The notes beneath the pieces are model-generated. The model saw nothing but the letters and a program-made list of their open reading frames with translations. It ran no database searches and had not been told where the DNA came from. A program made the translations under genes and the position numbers. Shown here in pieces: positions 791 through 35,662 of a stretch of 41,870 bases of DNA. Position 1 is the stretch's first letter; every line of letters starts with the position of its first letter. The DNA comes from an uncultured bacterium (lineage in GTDB: Bacteria > UBP6 > UBA1177 > JAKLFG01). The stretch is taken from positions 1 to 41,870 of the forward strand of contig CALMRE010000115.1 in NCBI GenBank assembly GCA_937871295.1, written 5' to 3'.

Positions 791-3700
791 ATGAACGGCA
801 GACATGTGCTTCTTCCCGTGCTTCTGATGATGTTCGCCGTTTCCTGCGGCGGGGCGAAAGGGACCGCGACGGCGCCCGATCCGCAGATACTGCCCGACGA
901 ACTGACACCCGATATCGATTTCACCGCCCCCGACCATTATGATGATCATGCCGCCGACTGGCAGAAGGTCGCGGCGGCCGAGAAGGAAGGGAAACCGCGC
1001 ACGGCGCTTGAGACGGTGGCGGTGATACTCGACACGGCGCGCGCCTCTCACAATGTGCCGCAGATCGTGAGGGCGCTCGTAGAGCGGACGAAGTTCGAAC
1101 AGCGCATCGGCGAGAAACAGCCCTCCGCCCTCATCGCCGAAATGGAAAAGGAAATAGCGACGGCGCAGTTTCCCGAAAAGAACCTGCTCCACTCCATCGC
1201 GGCCGATCTGTACGAGAACTATTTCCAGATGAACCGCTGGCGTTTCTATGAACGGACCGACACCACGGTGACCGAGAGCGACATCGCGACATGGAGCCTG
1301 CGCAAACTGATGGACCGTATCGCGGCGCATCATCACGCCGCGCTCGCGAACGCTCCGAAACTGCGCGAGATAAAGATAGAACTGCTGGACGAGGTGCTGA
1401 CGAAAGGGACGCGGGCGCGGACGCTGCGGCCGTCGTTGTATGATCTCATCGCCCACCGCGCCGTCGATTTTTTCATGAACGACGAAAGCAGTATCGCCCA
1501 GAGTGCGACTCCGTTCGAGGTGGCGAACACCGACTATCTGATGCCCGCCGAACGGTTCGCCCTCCTGCCGATACCGGCCACCGACAAAAGCGCGGCCGCA
1601 TGGCATGCTCTGACGATATTGCAGGACCTGACCCGCGCCCATCTGCGCGACAGGGATACGGCGGCGCTCATTGACATCGAGCTCAAGCGGCTCGCCTTTG
1701 TCCGCGGCATCGCGGTATTCGACAAGGTCGACGATCTTTATGAAAAGACGCTGATGCTCATGGAACAGCAGTACGGGTCGCAGCAGGCGGCGGCGAACAT
1801 CGGCTACGAACTGGCGCGGCTGTGGCGCGAGCTGGGGAACAAATGGCGCGAAGGGATGCCGGAGAGCGGCAAGAGGGGGCTTGCGCAGGCGCTCGAGAAG
1901 TGCGGCGTGGTATCACTCAAATGGCCCGACAGCGAGGGGGACAAACTTTGCAAAGCGCTTTCCTCTGAAATGACCCGCAAGTTCATACAGGTGCAGTCCG
2001 AACCGGCGGTCGCCCCCGATCAGCCGTCGCTCGCGTTCCTCAAATACCGTAATGTCAAGACGCTCTATTTCCGTACCGTGAAACTGACCGCCGCGCGGGC
2101 CGATGAACTGACGGCGCGCTACCATTACGGCGGCGAGAGTACCGAGAAGACGGCGAAGGAACTGGCGCTGCTGTCGCCGCGCCACGAATGGCAGGTGCCG
2201 CTCCCCGACGACGGCGATCTGCGCGAACATCGGGTCGAGGTGCCGGTCCCGCCGCTCGAACGGGGCGATTTCGCGCTCCTGTGCGGCACCGATCCGCAGT
2301 TCTCCTTCGAGAAGAATTCCCTCAACTGGGTCATCCTCCGTTCTTCGCGCATCGCCTTCCAACACCAAGTGAACGCCCTGCAGATAGAATTTTTCGTCGC
2401 CGACCGGTCGACCGGCCGCCCTATTCAGCAGGCGAAAGTCGAGGTGTATGAAACGACCTACGATTATTCCAGTTCCCGCTACAAGGAACGGCTCGTTGCG
2501 AGCGGTATGACCGATAAGGACGGCATCATGCACACCGGAATGCCGCAGGGGCGGTACTACAACCACGGTCTAACGGCGCTCGTCACGCAGGGGGGCGACC
2601 GCCTGAAAAGCGCCTTCTGGAGCTATCCGTACCGCAACGACCGCCATGCCGTCACCCGGACCTATTTCTTCACCGACCGCGCCATCTACCGGCCGGGGCA
2701 GACGATCTACTTCAAAGGGATAACCATTCAGCACGATGCGGCGGGGATGCCGACGCTCGTCAAAGGGCGCGGCGATACGGTCGAATTCTATGACGCGAAC
2801 CACCAGAAAGTGGGGAGCCTGAACCTGACGACCAACGACTACGGCAGTTTCCACGGCAGTTTCACCGCGCCCAGCGGTGCGCTCAACGGCCGGATGATGA
2901 TCCGCAGCAAGAACGGCAATCACACCGTTTCGGTCGAGGAGTACAAGCGGCCGCTGTTCGAGACGGGACTCGACGCCCCCAAGGGGAGTTACCGGCTCGG
3001 CGACGAGGTGACGGTCGAAGGTTTCGCGAAGTCTTACGCCGGATCTCCGCTCACCGACGCCAAGGTACAGTGGTATGTCGAGCGCGAGGTGCGATTCCCG
3101 TACTACTTCGGCTGGTGGGGCCGCAGCTGGTTCTACGACCTGTGGAACGGCAAAAAGGCGATGATCGGCAAAGGGGAGACGGTGAGCGGTCCCGACGGCC
3201 GCTTCTCGATCCGTTTCACCGCACGGCCCGACAAGCAGATACCCAAGGAGGAGCAGCCCTATTTCTCCTACCGTATCCACGCCGAGGTGACCGACATCAA
3301 CGGCGAGACCCATCCGGCCGAGCGGTTCGTGCAGGCGGCCTACAGCGCGCTCAATCTTTCTATCGGCGGCGCGCAACAGGGGTTCAGCGGTACGCCGTTC
3401 GAACTGGAACTGGCCACCACCAACATGAGCGGTGAGCTGGAGCCGGCGAAAGGAACGGTGACCATTGCGCGGCTGAAGGATGCCGAACGGCTTCTGCGCA
3501 AACGGCTCTTCTACGAACGGCCCGACCGCTACTTGCTCGACAAGGCGGCCTTCATCAAGCAGTTCCCGCATGACCCCTACGGCGATGAAGATACGGCGGA
3601 GCGGCAGAAAGATAAGGAATATCTGCGCCAGCCGTTCGATACCGCCGCCGCGAAAAAGATGACGGTAGAGCCCAAGGATTGGCCCGCGGGCGATTACCTC

Positions 3701-6700
3701 ATCGAGGCGACCGCGCAGGACAAGTTCGGCCAGCCGGTCGTGACGCGCCGCATCATCCCGGTGCGGGCCGTTGCCGACGCTCCCTTCACGCGGCCGCTCT
3801 ACGAGAATATCTTCGTCGCGAAAGATATGTATGAACCGGGCGAGACGGCGGAACTGGTGCTTGCTACCGGCGCCGACGCGGTGACGGTGGTGCTCGACAT
3901 CCTGCGGGACGAGAAAGAGGAGCGGAGCATCGTCACGCTCGACCGCTCGCAGAAGGTGATCCGTATCCCGGTGACCGAAGCGGACCGCGGCAACATCGCC
4001 TTCCGGTGGCTCTATCTCAAGCACGGCCGCAGTTATATGGGAATGCGGACCATCACCGTGCCGTGGAGCAATAAGCAGCTCAAGTATGAATTCCTCTCGT
4101 TCCGCAGTACCCTGCAACCGGGCGAGAAGGAGCAGTGGCGCATCAAGATAAGCGGTCCGAAAGGGGAGGCGGTGGCGGCCGAACTGGCGGCGACGCTTTA
4201 CGACGGATCGCTCGATGCCTTCCTGCCGCACAGTTGGTACTTCAGCCTTTTCCCGAACCATTATTATCGTTATCAGTGGCTCACCAACGAGGGTCAGCAG
4301 ATCCGGTACGCGACGCCGATCGAACGCGACTGGAACACCTATGTCCCGTGGCCGTCGCTGACCAGCGACGAACTCAACTACTTCGGTATGTACCTCGGCG
4401 GCGGCTACCGCTACAAGAATGCCGGGTACTACAACCGCGGCGTTGGCGGCGCGGCGCGGATGGCGTTGGCCGAAACGGCGGCCGACGAGGCGGAGGAGAC
4501 CGTCACCGCGACACCGGCGGCGCCGATGGCGAAACCGACCGCGGTAAAGGCCGACAAGAAAATGCTCAGCAGGAACGCGGGCGACGGCGATACCCGCTAC
4601 GAATTCGATGATGCGAACATCGCCGGCGAACTGGCGGCGCCTTCCGCGCCGCCGGTCCAGATACGGAAGAACCTGCAGGAGACCGCCTTCTTCTATCCGC
4701 AGTTGATGACCGACGAGAAGGGGGAACTGACCGTCTCCTTCACCGTTCCCGAGGCGCTGACGACTTGGAAAATGCTCGGGCTCGCCTACACCAAAGAGCT
4801 CGCCTCGACGATACTCAGGAACGAACTCAAGACGCAGAAGGAGATCATGGTCGCCCCCAATGTGCCGCGCTTCCTGCGCGAAGGGGATCGTCTTGTCCTG
4901 TCGGCGAAGATCAGCAACATGACCGACGCGGTGCGTGATGGCATGGCCGAACTGAAGTTGATGGATGCCCGGACGATGAATGATATCACCGCCGATTTCG
5001 CCATTCCCCAGAAAGAGGCGTCGTTCAGCGCCCCCGCCAAGGGGAACGCGGCGGTGCAGTGGCAGATAACGGTGCCCAAACGGACCGACCCGGTCGTCTG
5101 GCGCATCGTGGCCAAGGCCGGGGATAAGGGCGACGGCGAGGAGAACACCCTGCCGGTCCTCTCCAACCGGATGCTCGTCACCGAGACCCTGCCGCTTCCC
5201 ATCAATGGCAAGGAGACGAAGAACTTCACCCTGCAAAAACTGAAAGAGAACACCTCCCAGAGCCTCTCCAACCACCGCCTCACGCTTGAATTCACCTCGA
5301 ACCCGGCGTGGTATGCGGTGCAGGCGTTGCCGTACCTCATCGAGTATCCCTACGAGTGCGCCGAGCAGGTCTTTTCGCGCTACTATGCCAACAGCCTCGC
5401 GTCGCACATCGTGAATAAGAACGAGAAGATCGCGAAGGTTTTCGCCCAGTGGAAGGGGACCGCCGCGCTTGACTCCAACCTGATGAAGAACGAGGAACTC
5501 AAGTCGGCGCTCCTGCAGGAGACGCCGTGGGTGCTCGACGGACAGAACGAATCGGCCGCCAAACGGCGGGTGGCGCTGTTGTTCGACCTCAACCGGATGG
5601 GCAATGAACTCAAGAGCGCCTTCAACAAACTGCGGCAACTGCAGGTATCGAGCGGCGGCTGGCCGTGGTTCCCGGGACTGCCCGAGGACCCCTATATCAC
5701 TCAGCATATCACCGCGGGACTCGGCAAACTCAAGAAACTGGGCGTCGCGACCGGTCCCGACATCGAACGGATGACCCGCGCGGCGGTCGGCTATCTCGAC
5801 CGGCAGATGCAGCGCGAATACGAGGAACTCCTGCGCGCCAAGGTCGACATGCAGAAACAGCACATCTCCTATATGGAACGGCACTATCTCTACACTCGCA
5901 GTTTCTTCGTCGAGGTGCCGGTGGCCGAGAGGCATCAGGTCGCGTTCAATTATTGGAAAGGTCAGGCGGCGACCTACTGGGTCGATGAGACCCCCTACAT
6001 GACGGGGCTTACCGCGACGGCGCTGTTCCGTTTCGGCGACACGGCGACCCCGGCGAAGATGGTCGCGTCGCTCAAGGAGCGGGCGATCTATTCCGACGAA
6101 CTCGGGATGTACTGGAAGGAGAACATGGGGGGCTACTACTGGTTCCAGTTCCCCATCGAGACGCAGGCGGCGCTCATCGAGGCGTTCGAAGAGGTGGCAA
6201 AGGATCGCGCCTCGGCCGATAAGATGAAGACTTGGCTCATCAAGATGAAGCAGGTGCAGAACTGGCGTACCACCAAGGCGACCGCCGACGCGGTCTATGC
6301 GCTGCTGTACGGCGGCGGCGACTGGCTTGCCGGAACGAAACTCGCCACCGTCACGGTCGGCGGGAAAAAGGCGGGACCGGCCGAAGGGGAACCGACGCCC
6401 GAGGCGGGGACCGGCTATTTCAAGACCTCGTGGCCCGGCGCGCAGGTGACCCCGGCGATGGCGCAGGTGACGGTCCAGAACCCCAATCCGGGACCGGCGT
6501 GGGGCGCCCTCTACTGGCAGTATTTCGAGGAACTCGATAAGATAACCGCGGCGCAAAGCCCGCTCTCAATTGAGCGGCAGATACTGCGCGAAAAACGGAC
6601 CGACAGCGGCGCGGTGTTGGAACCGATCACCGGTGAGACACCGCTCAAAGTGGGCGACAAGTTAGCGGTGCGGCTCGTCCTGCGGGTCGACCGCGATATG

Positions 6701-6979
6701 GAATACCTGCACCTCAAGGATGCGCGTCCGGCGGGGACCGAGCCGGTCGATGTGCTGTCGGGACACGACTACCGCGACGGCCTCTGGTTCTACCGCGTCA
6801 CCAAGGATGTATCGACCAACTTCTTCATTCACCGCGCGGTGAAGGGGACCTATGTGCTGGAATATCGTCTCACGGTGACGCTCGCCGGGAACTATTCGGC
6901 CGGCATCGCGACGGCCCAGTGCATGTACGCCCCCGAATTCGCCGCCCACAGCGCCGGACTCAGACTCACCACGCAGTAG
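791..6979 (+). CDS. Alpha-2-macroglobulin family lipoprotein
   Basis: A 2062-residue bacterial alpha-2-macroglobulin, a periplasmic or surface protease trap. The N-terminus is a lipoprotein signal with lipobox AVSC (Cys19). Macroglobulin-type beta domains follow, including the diagnostic DRAIYRPG at about 629-636 and a second MYEPGE element. A low-complexity Ala/Glu/Lys-rich stretch at about 1225-1290 could be the bait region. The A2M domain is around 1300 (FFYPQLMTDEKGELTV). The thioester domain carries CAEQ at 1523-1526 within YPYECAEQ, and a GGWPWFPG helix-hairpin motif lies near 1622. In the family the Cys and Gln form the internal thioester that traps the attacking protease, so the protein should be active as a trap. 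At over 2000 residues it is longer than the YfhM-type proteins of enterobacteria. No pbpC (PBP1C) gene, the usual partner of that type, is adjacent; the upstream neighbour is a TPR membrane protein. The start has a GAGGGGG ribosome site. Confidence 0.95.
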   Translation: MNGRHVLLPVLLMMFAVSCGGAKGTATAPDPQILPDELTPDIDFTAPDHYDDHAADWQKVAAAEKEGKPRTALETVAVILDTARASHNVPQIVRALVERTKFEQRIGEKQPSALIAEMEKEIATAQFPEKNLLHSIAADLYENYFQMNRWRFYERTDTTVTESDIATWSLRKLMDRIAAHHHAALANAPKLREIKIELLDEVLTKGTRARTLRPSLYDLIAHRAVDFFMNDESSIAQSATPFEVANTDYLMPAERFALLPIPATDKSAAAWHALTILQDLTRAHLRDRDTAALIDIELKRLAFVRGIAVFDKVDDLYEKTLMLMEQQYGSQQAAANIGYELARLWRELGNKWREGMPESGKRGLAQALEKCGVVSLKWPDSEGDKLCKALSSEMTRKFIQVQSEPAVAPDQPSLAFLKYRNVKTLYFRTVKLTAARADELTARYHYGGESTEKTAKELALLSPRHEWQVPLPDDGDLREHRVEVPVPPLERGDFALLCGTDPQFSFEKNSLNWVILRSSRIAFQHQVNALQIEFFVADRSTGRPIQQAKVEVYETTYDYSSSRYKERLVASGMTDKDGIMHTGMPQGRYYNHGLTALVTQGGDRLKSAFWSYPYRNDRHAVTRTYFFTDRAIYRPGQTIYFKGITIQHDAAGMPTLVKGRGDTVEFYDANHQKVGSLNLTTNDYGSFHGSFTAPSGALNGRMMIRSKNGNHTVSVEEYKRPLFETGLDAPKGSYRLGDEVTVEGFAKSYAGSPLTDAKVQWYVEREVRFPYYFGWWGRSWFYDLWNGKKAMIGKGETVSGPDGRFSIRFTARPDKQIPKEEQPYFSYRIHAEVTDINGETHPAERFVQAAYSALNLSIGGAQQGFSGTPFELELATTNMSGELEPAKGTVTIARLKDAERLLRKRLFYERPDRYLLDKAAFIKQFPHDPYGDEDTAERQKDKEYLRQPFDTAAAKKMTVEPKDWPAGDYLIEATAQDKFGQPVVTRRIIPVRAVADAPFTRPLYENIFVAKDMYEPGETAELVLATGADAVTVVLDILRDEKEERSIVTLDRSQKVIRIPVTEADRGNIAFRWLYLKHGRSYMGMRTITVPWSNKQLKYEFLSFRSTLQPGEKEQWRIKISGPKGEAVAAELAATLYDGSLDAFLPHSWYFSLFPNHYYRYQWLTNEGQQIRYATPIERDWNTYVPWPSLTSDELNYFGMYLGGGYRYKNAGYYNRGVGGAARMALAETAADEAEETVTATPAAPMAKPTAVKADKKMLSRNAGDGDTRYEFDDANIAGELAAPSAPPVQIRKNLQETAFFYPQLMTDEKGELTVSFTVPEALTTWKMLGLAYTKELASTILRNELKTQKEIMVAPNVPRFLREGDRLVLSAKISNMTDAVRDGMAELKLMDARTMNDITADFAIPQKEASFSAPAKGNAAVQWQITVPKRTDPVVWRIVAKAGDKGDGEENTLPVLSNRMLVTETLPLPINGKETKNFTLQKLKENTSQSLSNHRLTLEFTSNPAWYAVQALPYLIEYPYECAEQVFSRYYANSLASHIVNKNEKIAKVFAQWKGTAALDSNLMKNEELKSALLQETPWVLDGQNESAAKRRVALLFDLNRMGNELKSAFNKLRQLQVSSGGWPWFPGLPEDPYITQHITAGLGKLKKLGVATGPDIERMTRAAVGYLDRQMQREYEELLRAKVDMQKQHISYMERHYLYTRSFFVEVPVAERHQVAFNYWKGQAATYWVDETPYMTGLTATALFRFGDTATPAKMVASLKERAIYSDELGMYWKENMGGYYWFQFPIETQAALIEAFEEVAKDRASADKMKTWLIKMKQVQNWRTTKATADAVYALLYGGGDWLAGTKLATVTVGGKKAGPAEGEPTPEAGTGYFKTSWPGAQVTPAMAQVTVQNPNPGPAWGALYWQYFEELDKITAAQSPLSIERQILREKRTDSGAVLEPITGETPLKVGDKLAVRLVLRVDRDMEYLHLKDARPAGTEPVDVLSGHDYRDGLWFYRVTKDVSTNFFIHRAVKGTYVLEYRLTVTLAGNYSAGIATAQCMYAPEFAAHSAGLRLTTQ

Positions 6980-7001
6980 CTTCCGGCCTGCTGAAGACCA
7001 C

Positions 7002-7030
7002 TTGACATCAAACCGGTCGGTCGGTACAAT
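7002..7030 (+). promoter_or_regulatory. Sigma70-type promoter for the DUF4160/DUF2442 pair
   Basis: TTGACA (7002-7007), a 17-bp spacer and TACAAT (7025-7030). It lies in the gap after the A2M stop codon and about 32 bp before the ATG at 7062, which has a GGGAGGAAGGG ribosome site. The pair therefore appears to be transcribed independently of the A2M gene. Confidence 0.85.
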
Positions 7031-7061
7031 GCCGAAGCATAGTTGATGGGAGGAAGGGACG

Positions 7062-7319
7062 ATGCCCGAGATCAGCAGATTCCTTGGAATGGTTATCTTC
7101 ATGAACTTCAATGATCACAACCCGCCGCACTTTCATGTGATGTATGGCGACTATCATGTCACCGTCGAAATACAGACGGGAGTCGTCGAGGGGAAATTTC
7201 CCAAACGGGCGCTTGCGTTGATACTGGAGTGGTATGAGCAGCATAGAGAGGAACTGCTGGATAACTGGAACGCCATCAAGAGTGACGGTACTTTTAGAAA
7301 AATACAGCCGTTGGAGTGA
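7062..7319 (+). CDS. DUF4160 family protein
   Basis: 85 residues, recognised as DUF4160 by its opening (PEISRFLGMVIFMNFNDH) and the NPPHFHV motif with conserved His residues, followed by a predicted beta strand and a helix (ALALILEWYEQHREELLDNW). Its biochemical function is not known. DUF4160 genes are commonly found directly next to DUF2442 genes, as here, where the two are separated by 3 bp. This two-gene layout resembles a toxin-antitoxin-like module, but neither partner has a recognisable toxin active site and I assign no activity. The pair has its own strong promoter. Confidence 0.9.
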   Translation: MPEISRFLGMVIFMNFNDHNPPHFHVMYGDYHVTVEIQTGVVEGKFPKRALALILEWYEQHREELLDNWNAIKSDGTFRKIQPLE

Positions 7320-7322
7320 GCG

Positions 7323-7580
7323 ATGTTGTTAAAGATAACCAAGGCTGAGTATGTCGGTGACTATCGCCTGAAGGTCACTTTCAACACTGGCGAGATACGG
7401 GTGGTCGACATGGAGTCCACCGTGATGAACGACCAACGCGCCATTTTCCAATCACTTCGCGACAAGGCATTCTTCAAACGATTCACGGTCGATTTCAATA
7501 CGGTGGTGTGGGAGAACCAGTTGGATATCGCTCCCGAGTACCTTTATGAAAAAGGCGTCGCGGTCAACAAGGCCGCGTGA
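7323..7580 (+). CDS. DUF2442 family protein
   Basis: 85 residues of the DUF2442 type: an N-terminal beta sheet (ITKAEYVGDYRLKVTFNTGE), a helix around FQSLRDKAFFKRF and the family's closing WENQLDIAPEYLYE segment. It begins 3 bp after the DUF4160 stop codon and is certainly in the same transcript. Members are often read as the partner of DUF4160 and may mediate binding or neutralisation, but this is inference from synteny. No DNA-binding helix-turn-helix is evident in this short form. Confidence 0.9.
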   Translation: MLLKITKAEYVGDYRLKVTFNTGEIRVVDMESTVMNDQRAIFQSLRDKAFFKRFTVDFNTVVWENQLDIAPEYLYEKGVAVNKAA

Positions 7581-31480: not shown

Positions 31481-31514
31481 CCCCCCGCTGTATTTGTGCA
31501 TCATGGAGGATCCG

Positions 31515-31769
31515 ATGAGCACCGAAAAACGCGCCAATATCAACACGATGGTCGCCCGTCTGCCCATCGTCGACCAGTGTGAAGGCTGTGAACGCGTCCG
31601 CGAAGAGAGCGGCGCAAAGGTCTGCTTCAAGTATGCCGAGCCGGCGTTCCACTGGGAGGACGGCCAGATATGCCTGATGGCGACCCATATCAAGAAAGAG
31701 GTGACGGTCGTCAAGAAAGTGGTCAACCCGTTGAAGGCCTCGAAACGGGCGGCCGGAAAGAAGAAGTAG
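31515..31769 (+). CDS. Small Cys-rich PxxKW-like protein
   Basis: 84 residues. Four cysteines (C22, C25, C37, C53: CEGCERV, KVCFKY, GQICLMATH) form a probable zinc-binding knuckle. PAFHW (43-47) stands where the PxxKW motif of a small Deltaproteobacterial Cys-rich family occurs (the Lys is His here), and the Lys-rich end NPLKASKR is similar to that family from memory. No function is known. The ATG at 31515 is preferred to the upstream ATG because GGAGGA lies 4 bases before it. The next gene begins 4 bp after its stop, so the two are co-transcribed. Confidence 0.75.
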   Translation: MSTEKRANINTMVARLPIVDQCEGCERVREESGAKVCFKYAEPAFHWEDGQICLMATHIKKEVTVVKKVVNPLKASKRAAGKKK

Positions 31770-31773
31770 ACAG

Positions 31774-33372
31774 TTGGAACACTTCCAGCTTCTCGCCTTT
31801 CCCGAGCAGTTATCCGCGATAACGCGTAGAAATAATGTGATTCCCGTTATACCGCTCTGGTTCCCGCGCGCCGATCTCAACCGCATCGTGCCGTGGGCCC
31901 GTCGCAGGGAACTGCCCTTCGCGCTTGCCTTCGACCGGGAACGGGTTCCGGCCGACTATTTCCGTCAGGCGCTGACGCTCGCCGACCGGCTGTTCCTGTT
32001 CTCGCCCGAAGAGGTCGAGGCGGCCCGCGCCGCGAAGTTCTCCGGCGAACTGTTCCTTTTTTCCGGCGGTACGATGCTTTCGTGGCCGCAGTGGTACCGC
32101 GACCATGCGGTGCGTCCCGTCGTCTCGGCGCTCCCCAATTGGGAAGCGTCGGCGGGTCTCGATCCGCTCTATCTGGCAACCACCAAGCGCTGTGTCGCCG
32201 AATTCGGCGCCTGCCGGTCGCGCGGCGGGAGTCTCCAGCAGTTCACCTATTGCGATCATCGGTGCCGCGACAAGGTGCACGATCGCCAGTCGGTCGGCGC
32301 CCCCTTTTCTCTGCGCCCCGAATATGTCCATCCGCCCGATGCGGTCGCGTGCGTCGCCTACGATGAGACCGCCCTCAATCCCGCCCTGCCCCGTTCCGCC
32401 AAGCCGGTCGTCCCGATCCTCAACGAGGCGTGGAACCATCCTTGGCCCATCGGTCGCCGCATTCTCACCGAAGCGCATAAGACAAGCGATACCCGCTTTT
32501 ATTTTAATTTGAGTGCCGATGAAAAGCGTCTTTTCGAGGAGGGGTTGTTCGGTTACTGGGGCTATCGCGAGAGTATCTATGACGGCGGCTGGGTGACGCC
32601 GGTGAAGGCGACGCCGTTCAAAGGCCGCCTGTTGCTGACGCTCGCCGCGCCGGTCCGCAAACTGCTGCTGGTGCAGACACACGATGCCGCCTCGCGCGAA
32701 CTGTTCAAGCGGGCGCGTCATCAACTCTACACAATGCCCGAACAGGCGCTCTTCGCGCCGGTGATCACCGAAGAGGAACCGCCGGCGCTACGCATCGCGA
32801 GCCGCAAACAGGTGCGCCTGACCCTCATCCTCGACGATCCCGAACGCAAAACCTTTTTCCGCATCCGCGATATCGACCGCGTGGCGCTCCTCTACGACGG
32901 GACGCCGGTCGGCAAGTTCTTCAACAACTATCTCTATATCCCGTTCCCGCTCACCGACGAGGAGGCCCGGAAGATAGCCTCCCACACCCGACTGCGCGGA
33001 GTGATCGTGCAGGACCGGCTCATGCGGCGGATGTTCCAGATCCTCTTCGCCGGGAGCAAGCGCGAGGTCCTGCTCCATCCGGCGGTGCTGATGACCGACG
33101 AGGAGTCCCCGTCGTACCTCGCGGGCAACGAACAGGTCTTCCGTTCGTGCTATACCTCCGAGCGGCGCAAGGATTATCAGTGGAAAGGCACCGGCATGCG
33201 GCTGGTCAACTACCGCTCGCACTCCTTTTTCTTCAAAGAGGCGCGGCTTCTGCGGGAAGGCGACCTGCCGGAACTGTGGATAGATGTCCTCGGCTGTGAT
33301 GACGATACGGTGCGCGCTCTGAAGGTCCGCGCCGAACGGTTCCTCAAGGAAAAACGCTCCTCCGCCGGGTAG
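31774..33372 (+). CDS. Peptidase U32-like protein with four-cysteine cluster
   Basis: 532 residues. A TTG start codon lies 4 bp after the previous stop, with no clear ribosome site, suggesting translation coupling. The spacing C140-x6-C147-x12-C160-x3-C164 (RCVAEFGAC...YCDHRC) matches the CxxxxxxC...CxxxCR cluster of the U32 family (RlhA, UbiU/UbiV, TrhP), where cysteines bind a [4Fe-4S] cluster in hydroxylation enzymes. The N-terminal 135 residues are a shortened alpha/beta region (RLFLFSPEEVEAARAAKF...) consistent with part of a TIM barrel. Residues about 165-530 have no clear match; PVGKFFNNYLYIPFPL and RSCYTSERRKDYQWKG stand out. I do not assign a substrate. It could be a tRNA/rRNA or quinone hydroxylase relative. 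Confidence 0.7.
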   Translation: MEHFQLLAFPEQLSAITRRNNVIPVIPLWFPRADLNRIVPWARRRELPFALAFDRERVPADYFRQALTLADRLFLFSPEEVEAARAAKFSGELFLFSGGTMLSWPQWYRDHAVRPVVSALPNWEASAGLDPLYLATTKRCVAEFGACRSRGGSLQQFTYCDHRCRDKVHDRQSVGAPFSLRPEYVHPPDAVACVAYDETALNPALPRSAKPVVPILNEAWNHPWPIGRRILTEAHKTSDTRFYFNLSADEKRLFEEGLFGYWGYRESIYDGGWVTPVKATPFKGRLLLTLAAPVRKLLLVQTHDAASRELFKRARHQLYTMPEQALFAPVITEEEPPALRIASRKQVRLTLILDDPERKTFFRIRDIDRVALLYDGTPVGKFFNNYLYIPFPLTDEEARKIASHTRLRGVIVQDRLMRRMFQILFAGSKREVLLHPAVLMTDEESPSYLAGNEQVFRSCYTSERRKDYQWKGTGMRLVNYRSHSFFFKEARLLREGDLPELWIDVLGCDDDTVRALKVRAERFLKEKRSSAG

Positions 33373-33429: not shown

Positions 33430-33473
33430 GACACGACGAACGGAAAATCGAGTATCACCAGATGGAGGTATCC

Positions 33474-35078
33474 GTGGCCAAGAATGTGATGATGCTGATG
33501 GGGGACGAGGCGATAGCGCAGGGCGCCATCGACGCCGGCGTCTCCGGTTTCTACGCCTATCCCGGCACCCCCTCGACCGAGATCATGGAATATGCGCAGC
33601 ATTCCAAAGATGCCGCCGTCCTCAACATCCACCGGCAGTGGTCGGCCAACGAGAAGACGGCGATGGAGTCGGCGCTCGGGATGTCCTACTGCGGCAAGCG
33701 GGCGATGGTATCGATGAAGCATGTCGGTCTCAATGTCGCGGCCGATCCGTTCGTGAACTCGGGCGTCACCGGCGCCAACGGCGGTATTATCGTCGTGGCG
33801 GCCGACGATCCTTCGATGCACAGTTCGCAGAATGAGCAGGACAGCCGCATTCTCGCTCAGTTCGCCCTCCTGCCGATCTTCGAGCCGGCCAACCAGCAGG
33901 AGGCCTACGACATGGCCTTTGCCGGGTATGAACTGTCGGAAAAATATAAAACGCCGGTCATGCTGCGGATCACCACGCGGCTGGCCCACAGCCGCGCCGG
34001 CGTCGAAATGAAGCCGCGCCTGAAGCAGAATGCGATGAAACTGCCCGAGAACAAGCGGCAGTTCGTCCTTCTGCCGGGGATCGCGCGCAAACAGTACAAA
34101 ACGCTCGTGGCGAATCAGGCGAAGTTCATGGAAGAGGCCGAAAAAAGCCCCTTCAACCGCTACATCGACGGCGCCGACAAGAGCCGCGGCATCATCGCCT
34201 GCGGCATCGCCTACAACTACCTGATGGAAAATTATCCGAACGGCTGTCCCCATCCGGTCCTCAAGCTCTGTCAGTACCCCGCGCCGAAGAAACTGATAGA
34301 GAAACTGGTGAAGGAGACCAAAGAGGTCCTCGTTCTCGAGGATGGTCAGCCGATGCTCGAAGAGTCGCTGCGCGGCCTTTTGGACCGCGATGTCAAAGTG
34401 AAGGGCCGCATCACCGGCGAGTTGCCGCGTGACGGCGAACTCAACCCGCTTTTTGTCCGCCGCGCCCTCGGGATGGCCGACATCTGCGGCGCGCCGGCCC
34501 CCGCCATCGTCGCTCCGCGGCCGCCCGCCTTCTGCGTCGGCTGCGGTCACATCGACGCCTACAACGCCATCAAGCAGGTGGTGACCACCGGCTACGAGGA
34601 CGGCCACGTCTTCGCCGACATCGGCTGTTACACCCTCGCGGCGCTCCCGCCGTTCGAGGTGGTCAATTCGTGCGTCGACATGGGCGCCTCCATCACGATG
34701 GCCAAAGGTGCCGCCGACGCCGGGCTCTTCCCCGCCTGCGCCGTCATCGGCGACTCGACCTTCTGCCACAGCGGCATGACGGGACTGCTCGACTGCGTCA
34801 TCGAGAATTCGAACGTCGTCATCTTCATACTCGACAACTCGGCGACCGCCATGACCGGCGGTCAGGATTCGCACGCGCTGGGCCGACTTGAGGCGATATG
34901 CAAAGGACTCGGCGTCGACGAGAAGCACATCCGCATCGTCAATCCGCTCAAAAAGAATCACGACGAGATGGTGCAGGTCATCAAGGAAGAGATCGAGTAC
35001 AAGGGCGTTTCGGTCATCATCCCGACCCGCGAATGCATCCAGACGCTCGGCAAGAAGAATAAAAAGGGAGGCGAATGA
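33474..35078 (+). CDS. iorA: Indolepyruvate ferredoxin oxidoreductase alpha subunit, short form
   Basis: 534 residues. Thiamine-diphosphate enzyme that decarboxylates aryl-pyruvates to acyl-CoA with ferredoxin as acceptor. Seen: the pyruvate-binding domain start (LMGDEAIAQGAIDAGVSGFYAYPGTPSTEI), FCVGCGH, and the TPP motif GDSTFCHSG...DNSATAMTGG. The C-terminus stops at CIQTLGKKNKKGGE; the two-[4Fe-4S] ferredoxin domain that ends archaeal IorA (about 600-650 residues) is missing. GTG 33474 is preferred to ATG 33462 because GGAGGT lies directly between them (5 bases before the GTG). The iorB start overlaps its stop. Uses: aromatic amino acid or branched-chain degradation, or reverse synthesis of 2-oxoacids. 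Confidence 0.93.
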   Translation: MAKNVMMLMGDEAIAQGAIDAGVSGFYAYPGTPSTEIMEYAQHSKDAAVLNIHRQWSANEKTAMESALGMSYCGKRAMVSMKHVGLNVAADPFVNSGVTGANGGIIVVAADDPSMHSSQNEQDSRILAQFALLPIFEPANQQEAYDMAFAGYELSEKYKTPVMLRITTRLAHSRAGVEMKPRLKQNAMKLPENKRQFVLLPGIARKQYKTLVANQAKFMEEAEKSPFNRYIDGADKSRGIIACGIAYNYLMENYPNGCPHPVLKLCQYPAPKKLIEKLVKETKEVLVLEDGQPMLEESLRGLLDRDVKVKGRITGELPRDGELNPLFVRRALGMADICGAPAPAIVAPRPPAFCVGCGHIDAYNAIKQVVTTGYEDGHVFADIGCYTLAALPPFEVVNSCVDMGASITMAKGAADAGLFPACAVIGDSTFCHSGMTGLLDCVIENSNVVIFILDNSATAMTGGQDSHALGRLEAICKGLGVDEKHIRIVNPLKKNHDEMVQVIKEEIEYKGVSVIIPTRECIQTLGKKNKKGGE

Positions 35079-35662
35079 TGAAGAGCGATATCATACTTTC
35101 GGGCGTCGGCGGTCAGGGCATCCTCTCCATCGCGGCGGTCATCGGACAGGCGGCGGTGTCGGCGGGACTCCACATGAAACAGTCCGAGGTCCACGGCATG
35201 TCCCAGCGCGGCGGCGATGTCCAGTCGCATCTGCGCATCAGCGATAAAGAGGTCTTTTCCGACCTTGTGCCGCACGGCGCCGCCGACATGATACTCTCGG
35301 TCGAGCCGATGGAATCGCTCCGCTATCTCCCGTGGCTTTCCAAGCAGGGGTGGATCATCACCAACTCCCAGCCCTTCATCAACATCCCGAATTATCCCGA
35401 CCAGAAGGCGGTCATCGCCGAAATAGAAAAACAGCCCAAGCACATCATCATCAACGCCGACGAACTCGCCAAGGCGGCGGGCAACTCGCGCGGCATGAAC
35501 ATGGTCATGGCGGGCGCCGCGTCGCTGTTCGTCGACATCCCGCAGGAGAAGATGGAAGGGGCCATCCAGTTCCTCTTCGGCCGCAAAGGCGAAGAGATCG
35601 TGAAGTCCAACATCGCCGCATTCCGCGCCGGCCGCGAGTTCGCCCAGAAGAAACGCGGCTGA
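35075..35662 (+). CDS. iorB: Indolepyruvate ferredoxin oxidoreductase beta subunit
   Basis: 195 residues, the gamma-domain of 2-oxoacid:ferredoxin oxidoreductases (IorB). Starts with the nucleotide-binding-like SGVGGQGILSIAAVIGQAA and the family's HGMSQRGGDVQSHLRI. It has no Fe-S cysteines. ATG 35075 overlaps the iorA stop; ATG 35078 is equally possible and has better spacing (6 bases) from GGGAGG. Together with IorA it completes the two-subunit enzyme. Confidence 0.95.
   Translation: MMKSDIILSGVGGQGILSIAAVIGQAAVSAGLHMKQSEVHGMSQRGGDVQSHLRISDKEVFSDLVPHGAADMILSVEPMESLRYLPWLSKQGWIITNSQPFINIPNYPDQKAVIAEIEKQPKHIIINADELAKAAGNSRGMNMVMAGAASLFVDIPQEKMEGAIQFLFGRKGEEIVKSNIAAFRAGREFAQKKRG

Follow-up and report, generated by a model that had tools for sequence, protein, structure and literature searches.

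A probable distant relative of the U32 proteins, restricted to one bacterial order and encoded directly downstream of a DUF6811 gene

Members of the U32 superfamily include TrhP and RlhA (PF01136), which are associated with RNA hydroxylation, and the UbiU and UbiV proteins. TrhP is reported to require residues E162, C170 and C177, and RlhA the equivalent positions, with E161 as the glutamate (PMC6599085). The canonical U32 cysteine spacing is given as C-x6-C-x15-C-x3/4-C; UbiU is described with the spacing CX6CX16CX38C, and UbiV, which is purified together with UbiU as a heterodimer, binds a [4Fe-4S] cluster via CXnCX12CX3C (PMC6747719). According to PMC11574389, it is still open by which mechanism the U32 proteins carry out O2-independent hydroxylation and what their cluster does. 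A branch possessing the cluster cysteines but devoid of the essential glutamate would separate these two roles, i.e., hydroxylation and cluster. Here we describe such a candidate, U32L, encoded in a 41,870-nucleotide stretch of DNA from an uncultured bacterium (the window), and we find that it is probably a distant, order-restricted relative of the U32 proteins, as judged from sequence comparisons.

U32L resembles TrhP and RlhA in a putative N-terminal barrel segment and in a C-x6-C...C-x3-C-R motif that lies in register with theirs, but differs from both in the x12 instead of x15 gap, in the absence of E162, HxSxQ and KIEGR, in giving no PF01136 match by HMMER, and in its own C-terminal region. 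With UbiV (E. coli YhbV, U32 family) it has in common the C-x12-C-x3-C spacing and the lack of HxSxQ and KIEGR. However, the fourth ligand of UbiV is the distant C39, whereas the predicted one of U32L is C140, with six residues between it and C147; UbiV has ~290 aa and keeps the glutamate, whereas U32L has 532 aa and has lost it; and the partner gene is ubiU in the one case and DUF6811 in the other. In the window, the neighbors of U32L belong to DUF6811 and to POR/TPP families, none being U32. The features of the locus are collected in Table 1.

Table 1. Positions of the features discussed in the text, numbered along the window.
Feature	Coordinates	Strand	Remarks
DUF6811/'PxxKW' Cys-rich small protein	31503..31769 (start 31503 or 31515)	+	PF20657 E 1.4e-22; upstream of U32L
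U32L, U32-like protein	31774..33372	+	532 aa, TTG start; homologues in 23/386 genomes
U32L residues 30-172, aligning with the barrel of U32 (PF01136)	31861..32289	+	P 0.003-0.006 in hhalign with the 52 pooled U32 proteins
Codon of L132, site of the essential Glu in U32 hydroxylases (TrhP E162)	32167..32169	+	V 16/L 4 in 20 rows
Codons of C140, C147, C160 and C164 (C-x6-C-x12-C-x3-C), then R165	32191..32265	+	Predicted [4Fe-4S] ligands; invariant 20/20
U32L residues 407-445, second, short resemblance to the U32 barrel (DAxIVxDxG...LHxSTQ segment), no Cys	32992..33108	+	0/60 shuffles against pooled U32
iorA/iorB-like genes (2-oxoacid:ferredoxin oxidoreductase family domains)	33462..35662	+	Pfam; not conserved with U32L

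The U32L open reading frame is a real gene under purifying selection. Its full-length homologues in related genomes exhibit 79%, 63-65% and 31-33% identity, and in six pairs the dN values of 0.02-0.13 stand against dS values of 0.29-1.03. U32L was found in 23 genomes both when 61 genomes were searched with the single protein and when 386 were searched with a profile, and all of the 23 belong to the window's own order. No U32L was found in the two remaining genomes of the 25 assigned to this order, G003 (65% complete) and G015 (91% complete), and the viral contigs searched contained no relative. Our alignment A1 comprises 20 of the 21 full-length loci, with L008 left out and the fragments L022-L025 excluded. 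When compared with Pfam, NCBIfam and PDB sequences, the window protein gave nothing at E<=1, which includes the 368 residues following C164 and upholds the statement of an earlier note on this DNA that the C-terminal ~370 residues match no recognised family. At E<=10, the 20 homologues retrieved from Pfam and NCBIfam only scattered weak matches, none of them U32; the best were DUF1463 in Pfam (E 0.006, in 5/20) and a single NCBIfam match (E 0.025, in 1/20). The sole PDB profile match of U32L is a phosphotyrosine phosphatase at E 0.19.

A probable relationship with U32 emerges from profile-profile comparisons with hhalign, for which the set of 72 U32 proteins was thinned to 52. Residues 30-172 are collinear with the barrel of the TrhP-like, UbiU/V-like and pooled U32 sets, with all of the motif cysteines in register. 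Residues 1-200 score 29.4 against the pooled set (P 0.0034), a value attained by none of 60 column shuffles (mean 14.7, maximum 26.9). After the Cys motif is cut out (residues 1-137), the score is 25.3, again reached in 0/60 shuffles and with the register unchanged. The pooled set gave 0/60 for each of the five U32L segments tested and the single subfamilies gave 0/25, save for three comparisons at 1/25 (TrhP-like with full U32L and with residues 1-260, and UbiU/V-like with residues 330-532). Reversed controls score 9-21, and the unrelated TIM barrels DHDPS and HMGL (the latter represented by 16 proteins cut to 330 aa) remain at the background level of 12.5-16.2. As a side observation, HMGL-like enzymes (PF00682, E<=1e-20) occur in 0/28 genomes of the phylum (G000-G027) and in 25/61 of those searched overall. 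A decoy test was built from 27 families taken from the fetched loci, namely U32L itself, three U32 and 23 non-U32 families. For residues 1-200 the U32 families take places 1, 3 and 17 among the 26 other than U32L, the best of them surpassing 23/23 non-U32 families (30.2 vs. 23.8 for the best non-U32 one), and for full U32L they rank 1, 2 and 8.

Several results set a limit to this kinship. The absolute hhalign probabilities between U32L and U32 are low (1.7-9.5%), and no match to PF01136, let alone one above the curated cut-off, was obtained either for the window protein at E<=1 or for 20 members examined by hmmscan at E<=10. Moreover, the comparison of U32 itself with the unrelated DHDPS barrel yields 25.3, which means that a common fold alone can give rise to scores of 25. 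With the first row as the anchor for the columns, only 12.6 is reached by the UbiU/V-like set against residues 1-200, and for full U32L the TrhP-like (21.7) and UbiU/V-like (22.1) sets fall under the best decoy (24.1). Given the low probabilities, the DHDPS value and these drops, the relationship is distant homology at best. The proposal of the earlier note that U32L is a U32 relative, maybe of a new branch, is nevertheless supported by the best and the pooled profile-profile scores, which exceed those of shuffles and decoy families, even without the Cys motif.

All four cysteines of the motif are invariant in the 20 aligned rows, and the remaining three of the window protein are present in 1, 2 and 1 rows. 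Upon random placement of seven cysteines, the exact U32L spacing arose in 0/200,000 trials and any U32-like spacing (x6, x10-16, x3/4) in 9/200,000. By hhalign, the four align with C170, C177, C193 and C197 of TrhP, and a four-cysteine set of the canonical or an attested variant type, as expected for Peptidase_U32, is found in 20/20 U32L proteins. The second gap in the fetched U32 proteins is mostly 15, with rare exceptions such as the x10-x3 arrangement in L167. Since x6 is that of canonical U32 and x12-x3 that of UbiV, the U32L motif appears as a mix of two variants. The match to the U32 Fe-S cluster claimed earlier thus holds as regards the presence and invariance of the motif, but not as regards the gap, which is x15 in the canonical form. 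By analogy with U32 proteins, we infer that the four cysteines hold a [4Fe-4S] cluster. They might instead bind zinc or play a structural or nucleic-acid-binding role, with the U32 resemblance being convergent, which we regard as improbable. Such a view would accord with the missing HMM-level match, the low hhalign probabilities, the score of U32 against an unrelated barrel and the invariant basic residues near the cysteines (R150, R163, R165 and K167), yet it does not account for a U32 alignment that spans ~140 columns and persists without the cysteines, or for the lower scores of two unrelated barrels and 23 non-U32 families against residues 1-200.

In contrast to the cysteines, the hydroxylase signature is missing. 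The position of the essential glutamate, eight residues before the first cysteine, is occupied by V or L in 20/20 U32L proteins and by E in 58/58 U32 proteins, the latter count comprising those of the 72 that fit the motif pattern. Similarly, HxSxQ and KIEGR occur in 0/20 U32L proteins vs. 53/72 and 60/72 U32 proteins, respectively. The replaced glutamate and the absence of both motifs make a hydroxylase of the TrhP type unlikely. We also considered that U32L may be an active O2-independent hydroxylase of the TrhP, RlhA or UbiUV kind, acting with an unusual active site on RNA, lipid or another substrate. The invariant U32-type cysteine set and the purifying selection are in agreement with this, and so is the case of UbiV, which in our alignment also lacks HxSxQ and KIEGR, yet is described as required for hydroxylation (PMC6747719). 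However, UbiV retains the glutamate (the E162 column is invariant in 16/16 rows of alignment A3) that is absent from every U32L protein, and we consider an active hydroxylase unlikely also in view of the prephenate supply.

Chorismate synthase was detected in 22/25 genomes of the order and the CM_2 (type II) chorismate mutase in 20/25. Prephenate dehydratase and prephenate dehydrogenase were each found in 0/25, while 14/14 control genomes were positive for both; the order therefore seems, from its gene content, to make prephenate yet to lack these two enzymes. Other users of prephenate are CmoA and the PheC-type dehydratase. Canonical U32 proteins are encoded by 23/25 genomes, with only one partial match in G003. 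The two genomes without them, G002 and G004 of genus g2, are also the only ones in which neither chorismate synthase nor chorismate mutase was detected, and both keep the U32L-DUF6811 pair. This pattern is consistent with a role of prephenate in serving the canonical U32 proteins while being dispensable for U32L, but it represents one event at most, as G002 and G004 are MAGs of sister lineage (completeness 92% and 83%). The order (G000-G024) may hence offer a natural test of prephenate as a U32 co-substrate. Altogether, in view of the lost glutamate and motifs and of the g2 genomes, the hydroxylase activity suggested in the earlier note is not supported, and U32L is probably not a prephenate-dependent hydroxylase.

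Structure prediction, which the earlier note had recommended, gave a divided answer. The full-length model, based on four sequences, reached a pLDDT of 37.9. That of residues 1-262 attained 50.8, and the blocks covering residues 11-90 averaged 56-78. In the latter model, strands and helices alternate as beta-alpha repeats from residue 23 to 115. Foldseek returned no match at E<=0.001. VIA gave a best Z of 6.3, and none of the 50 matches listed is named U32; going by their names, we take many of them to be TIM barrels, although presumably not the first-listed one. The better-modelled part of the protein is thus predicted as beta-alpha-repeating, but the models are too poor to establish a TIM barrel.

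The C-terminal region raises the question of a second barrel. For residues 330-532, the U32 families occupy places 1, 2 and 4 of 26, and part of residues 407-445 matches one and the same segment of U32 in the TrhP-like, RlhA-like, UbiU/V-like and pooled sets. In the RlhA-like alignment the best match falls on residues 407-435, and the partner of residues 61-120 is the second half of RlhA. It is conceivable, though doubtful, that U32L is an RlhA-like two-barrel protein composed of a cluster-bearing N-terminal half and a cluster-free C-terminal half derived from a second U32 domain; this would be compatible with the explanation that we prefer below. On the other hand, only 27-38 columns align in the 407-445 comparisons, the UbiU/V-like score for residues 330-532 is one of those equalled by a shuffle, and no internal repeat between the two U32L halves was found (hhalign score 12.9). 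As the halves have no mutual similarity, the resemblance at residues 407-445 is only suggestive.

The gene upstream of U32L is a clear member of DUF6811 (PF20657), a Cys-rich protein for which we take 'PxxKW' to be the nickname. We found it directly upstream and on the same strand in 19/20 fetched regions, the 20th (G006) being cut inside U32L by the contig end; in the same genome, contig C198 carries DUF6811 followed by a 45-residue start of U32L (E 0.001). The same order is present in the window and, by coordinates, in G007 and G021, so that U32L follows the DUF6811 gene directly in every case where the contig includes the 5' end of U32L. Translation of U32L starts with TTG in 21/21 loci, which represent five genera; such conservation is unusual for a rare start codon. 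In the f2 loci (17/17), an in-frame stop lies <=8 codons upstream of the TTG, with no ATG in between. In 17 loci measured, including the window, the TTG is located 3-12 nt after the DUF6811 stop; from this proximity we infer that the two proteins are synthesized in a coupled manner and form a complex, and they are probably co-translated partners. The relation is not reciprocal, since outside the order 15 genomes have DUF6811 and none of these has U32L, and inside it G015 has DUF6811 without U32L; DUF6811 therefore does not need U32L.

Compared with other members, the DUF6811 proteins of the order are paired with U32L, carry PxxHW in place of PxxKW and, counted from the window ATG, are devoid of the N-terminal extra cysteines present in 14/15 outside members (the exception is L133). 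Two cysteines are encoded in the open frame that precedes the DUF6811 start in L081-L083, which are f1 loci. Among the DUF6811 copies unlinked to U32L (L146-L148), those of G022 and G018 adjoin a glutamate dehydrogenase family gene and that of G015 a GAPDH-like gene. Outside the order, seven neighboring proteins scanned had no Pfam family in common. In L133 and L145, long ORFs adjacent to DUF6811 were considered as a second pairing and discarded, as they have no Pfam match and appear by eye to be antisense artefacts. A functional link of U32L with the iorAB-like genes was likewise rejected, because they adjoin only in the window and in 2/20 fetched regions (L081 and L083). No paper on DUF6811 or PxxKW was found in a full-text literature search.

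On balance, we lean toward the explanation that U32L is a U32-derived protein which has lost the hydroxylase signature and forms, with DUF6811, a predicted [4Fe-4S] redox or scaffold unit. U32L would be a divergent offshoot of the superfamily, confined to this order, whose N-terminal part retains a beta-alpha barrel segment (by statistical homology) and the four presumptive cluster cysteines, and in which the glutamate, HxSxQ and KIEGR of the prephenate-dependent hydroxylases are missing. Translation from the TTG just behind the DUF6811 stop would couple the synthesis of the two proteins and favor their assembly into a complex, in which the [4Fe-4S] cluster may pass electrons to, or organize, a partner or substrate. 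The nearest working model would be UbiV, a heterodimer partner of UbiU that likewise does without HxSxQ and KIEGR. Only tentatively do we propose the more specific scenario that the U32 barrel was re-purposed, with the glutamate gone and the cluster put to use in a prephenate-independent two-protein metal unit with DUF6811. If true, this would be, to our knowledge, the first non-hydroxylase [4Fe-4S] branch of the U32 superfamily and would provide the first function for a DUF6811 protein. U32L in any case gives DUF6811 a testable partner.

Among the other U32 genes of the order, we noted a divergent one at locus L246 (G000:C238:7000-16000, 1053-7529), encoding a 423-aa protein with a PF01136 match at E 2e-9. 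Our full-text search found no paper joining U32, hopanoid and squalene. The gene lies between those for a squalene-hopene cyclase and a fused chorismate mutase-DAHP synthase, and two squalene/phytoene-synthase-like ORFs were recognized by eye in its vicinity, an organization which suggests a hopanoid cluster in which a U32 enzyme has a prephenate supply of its own.
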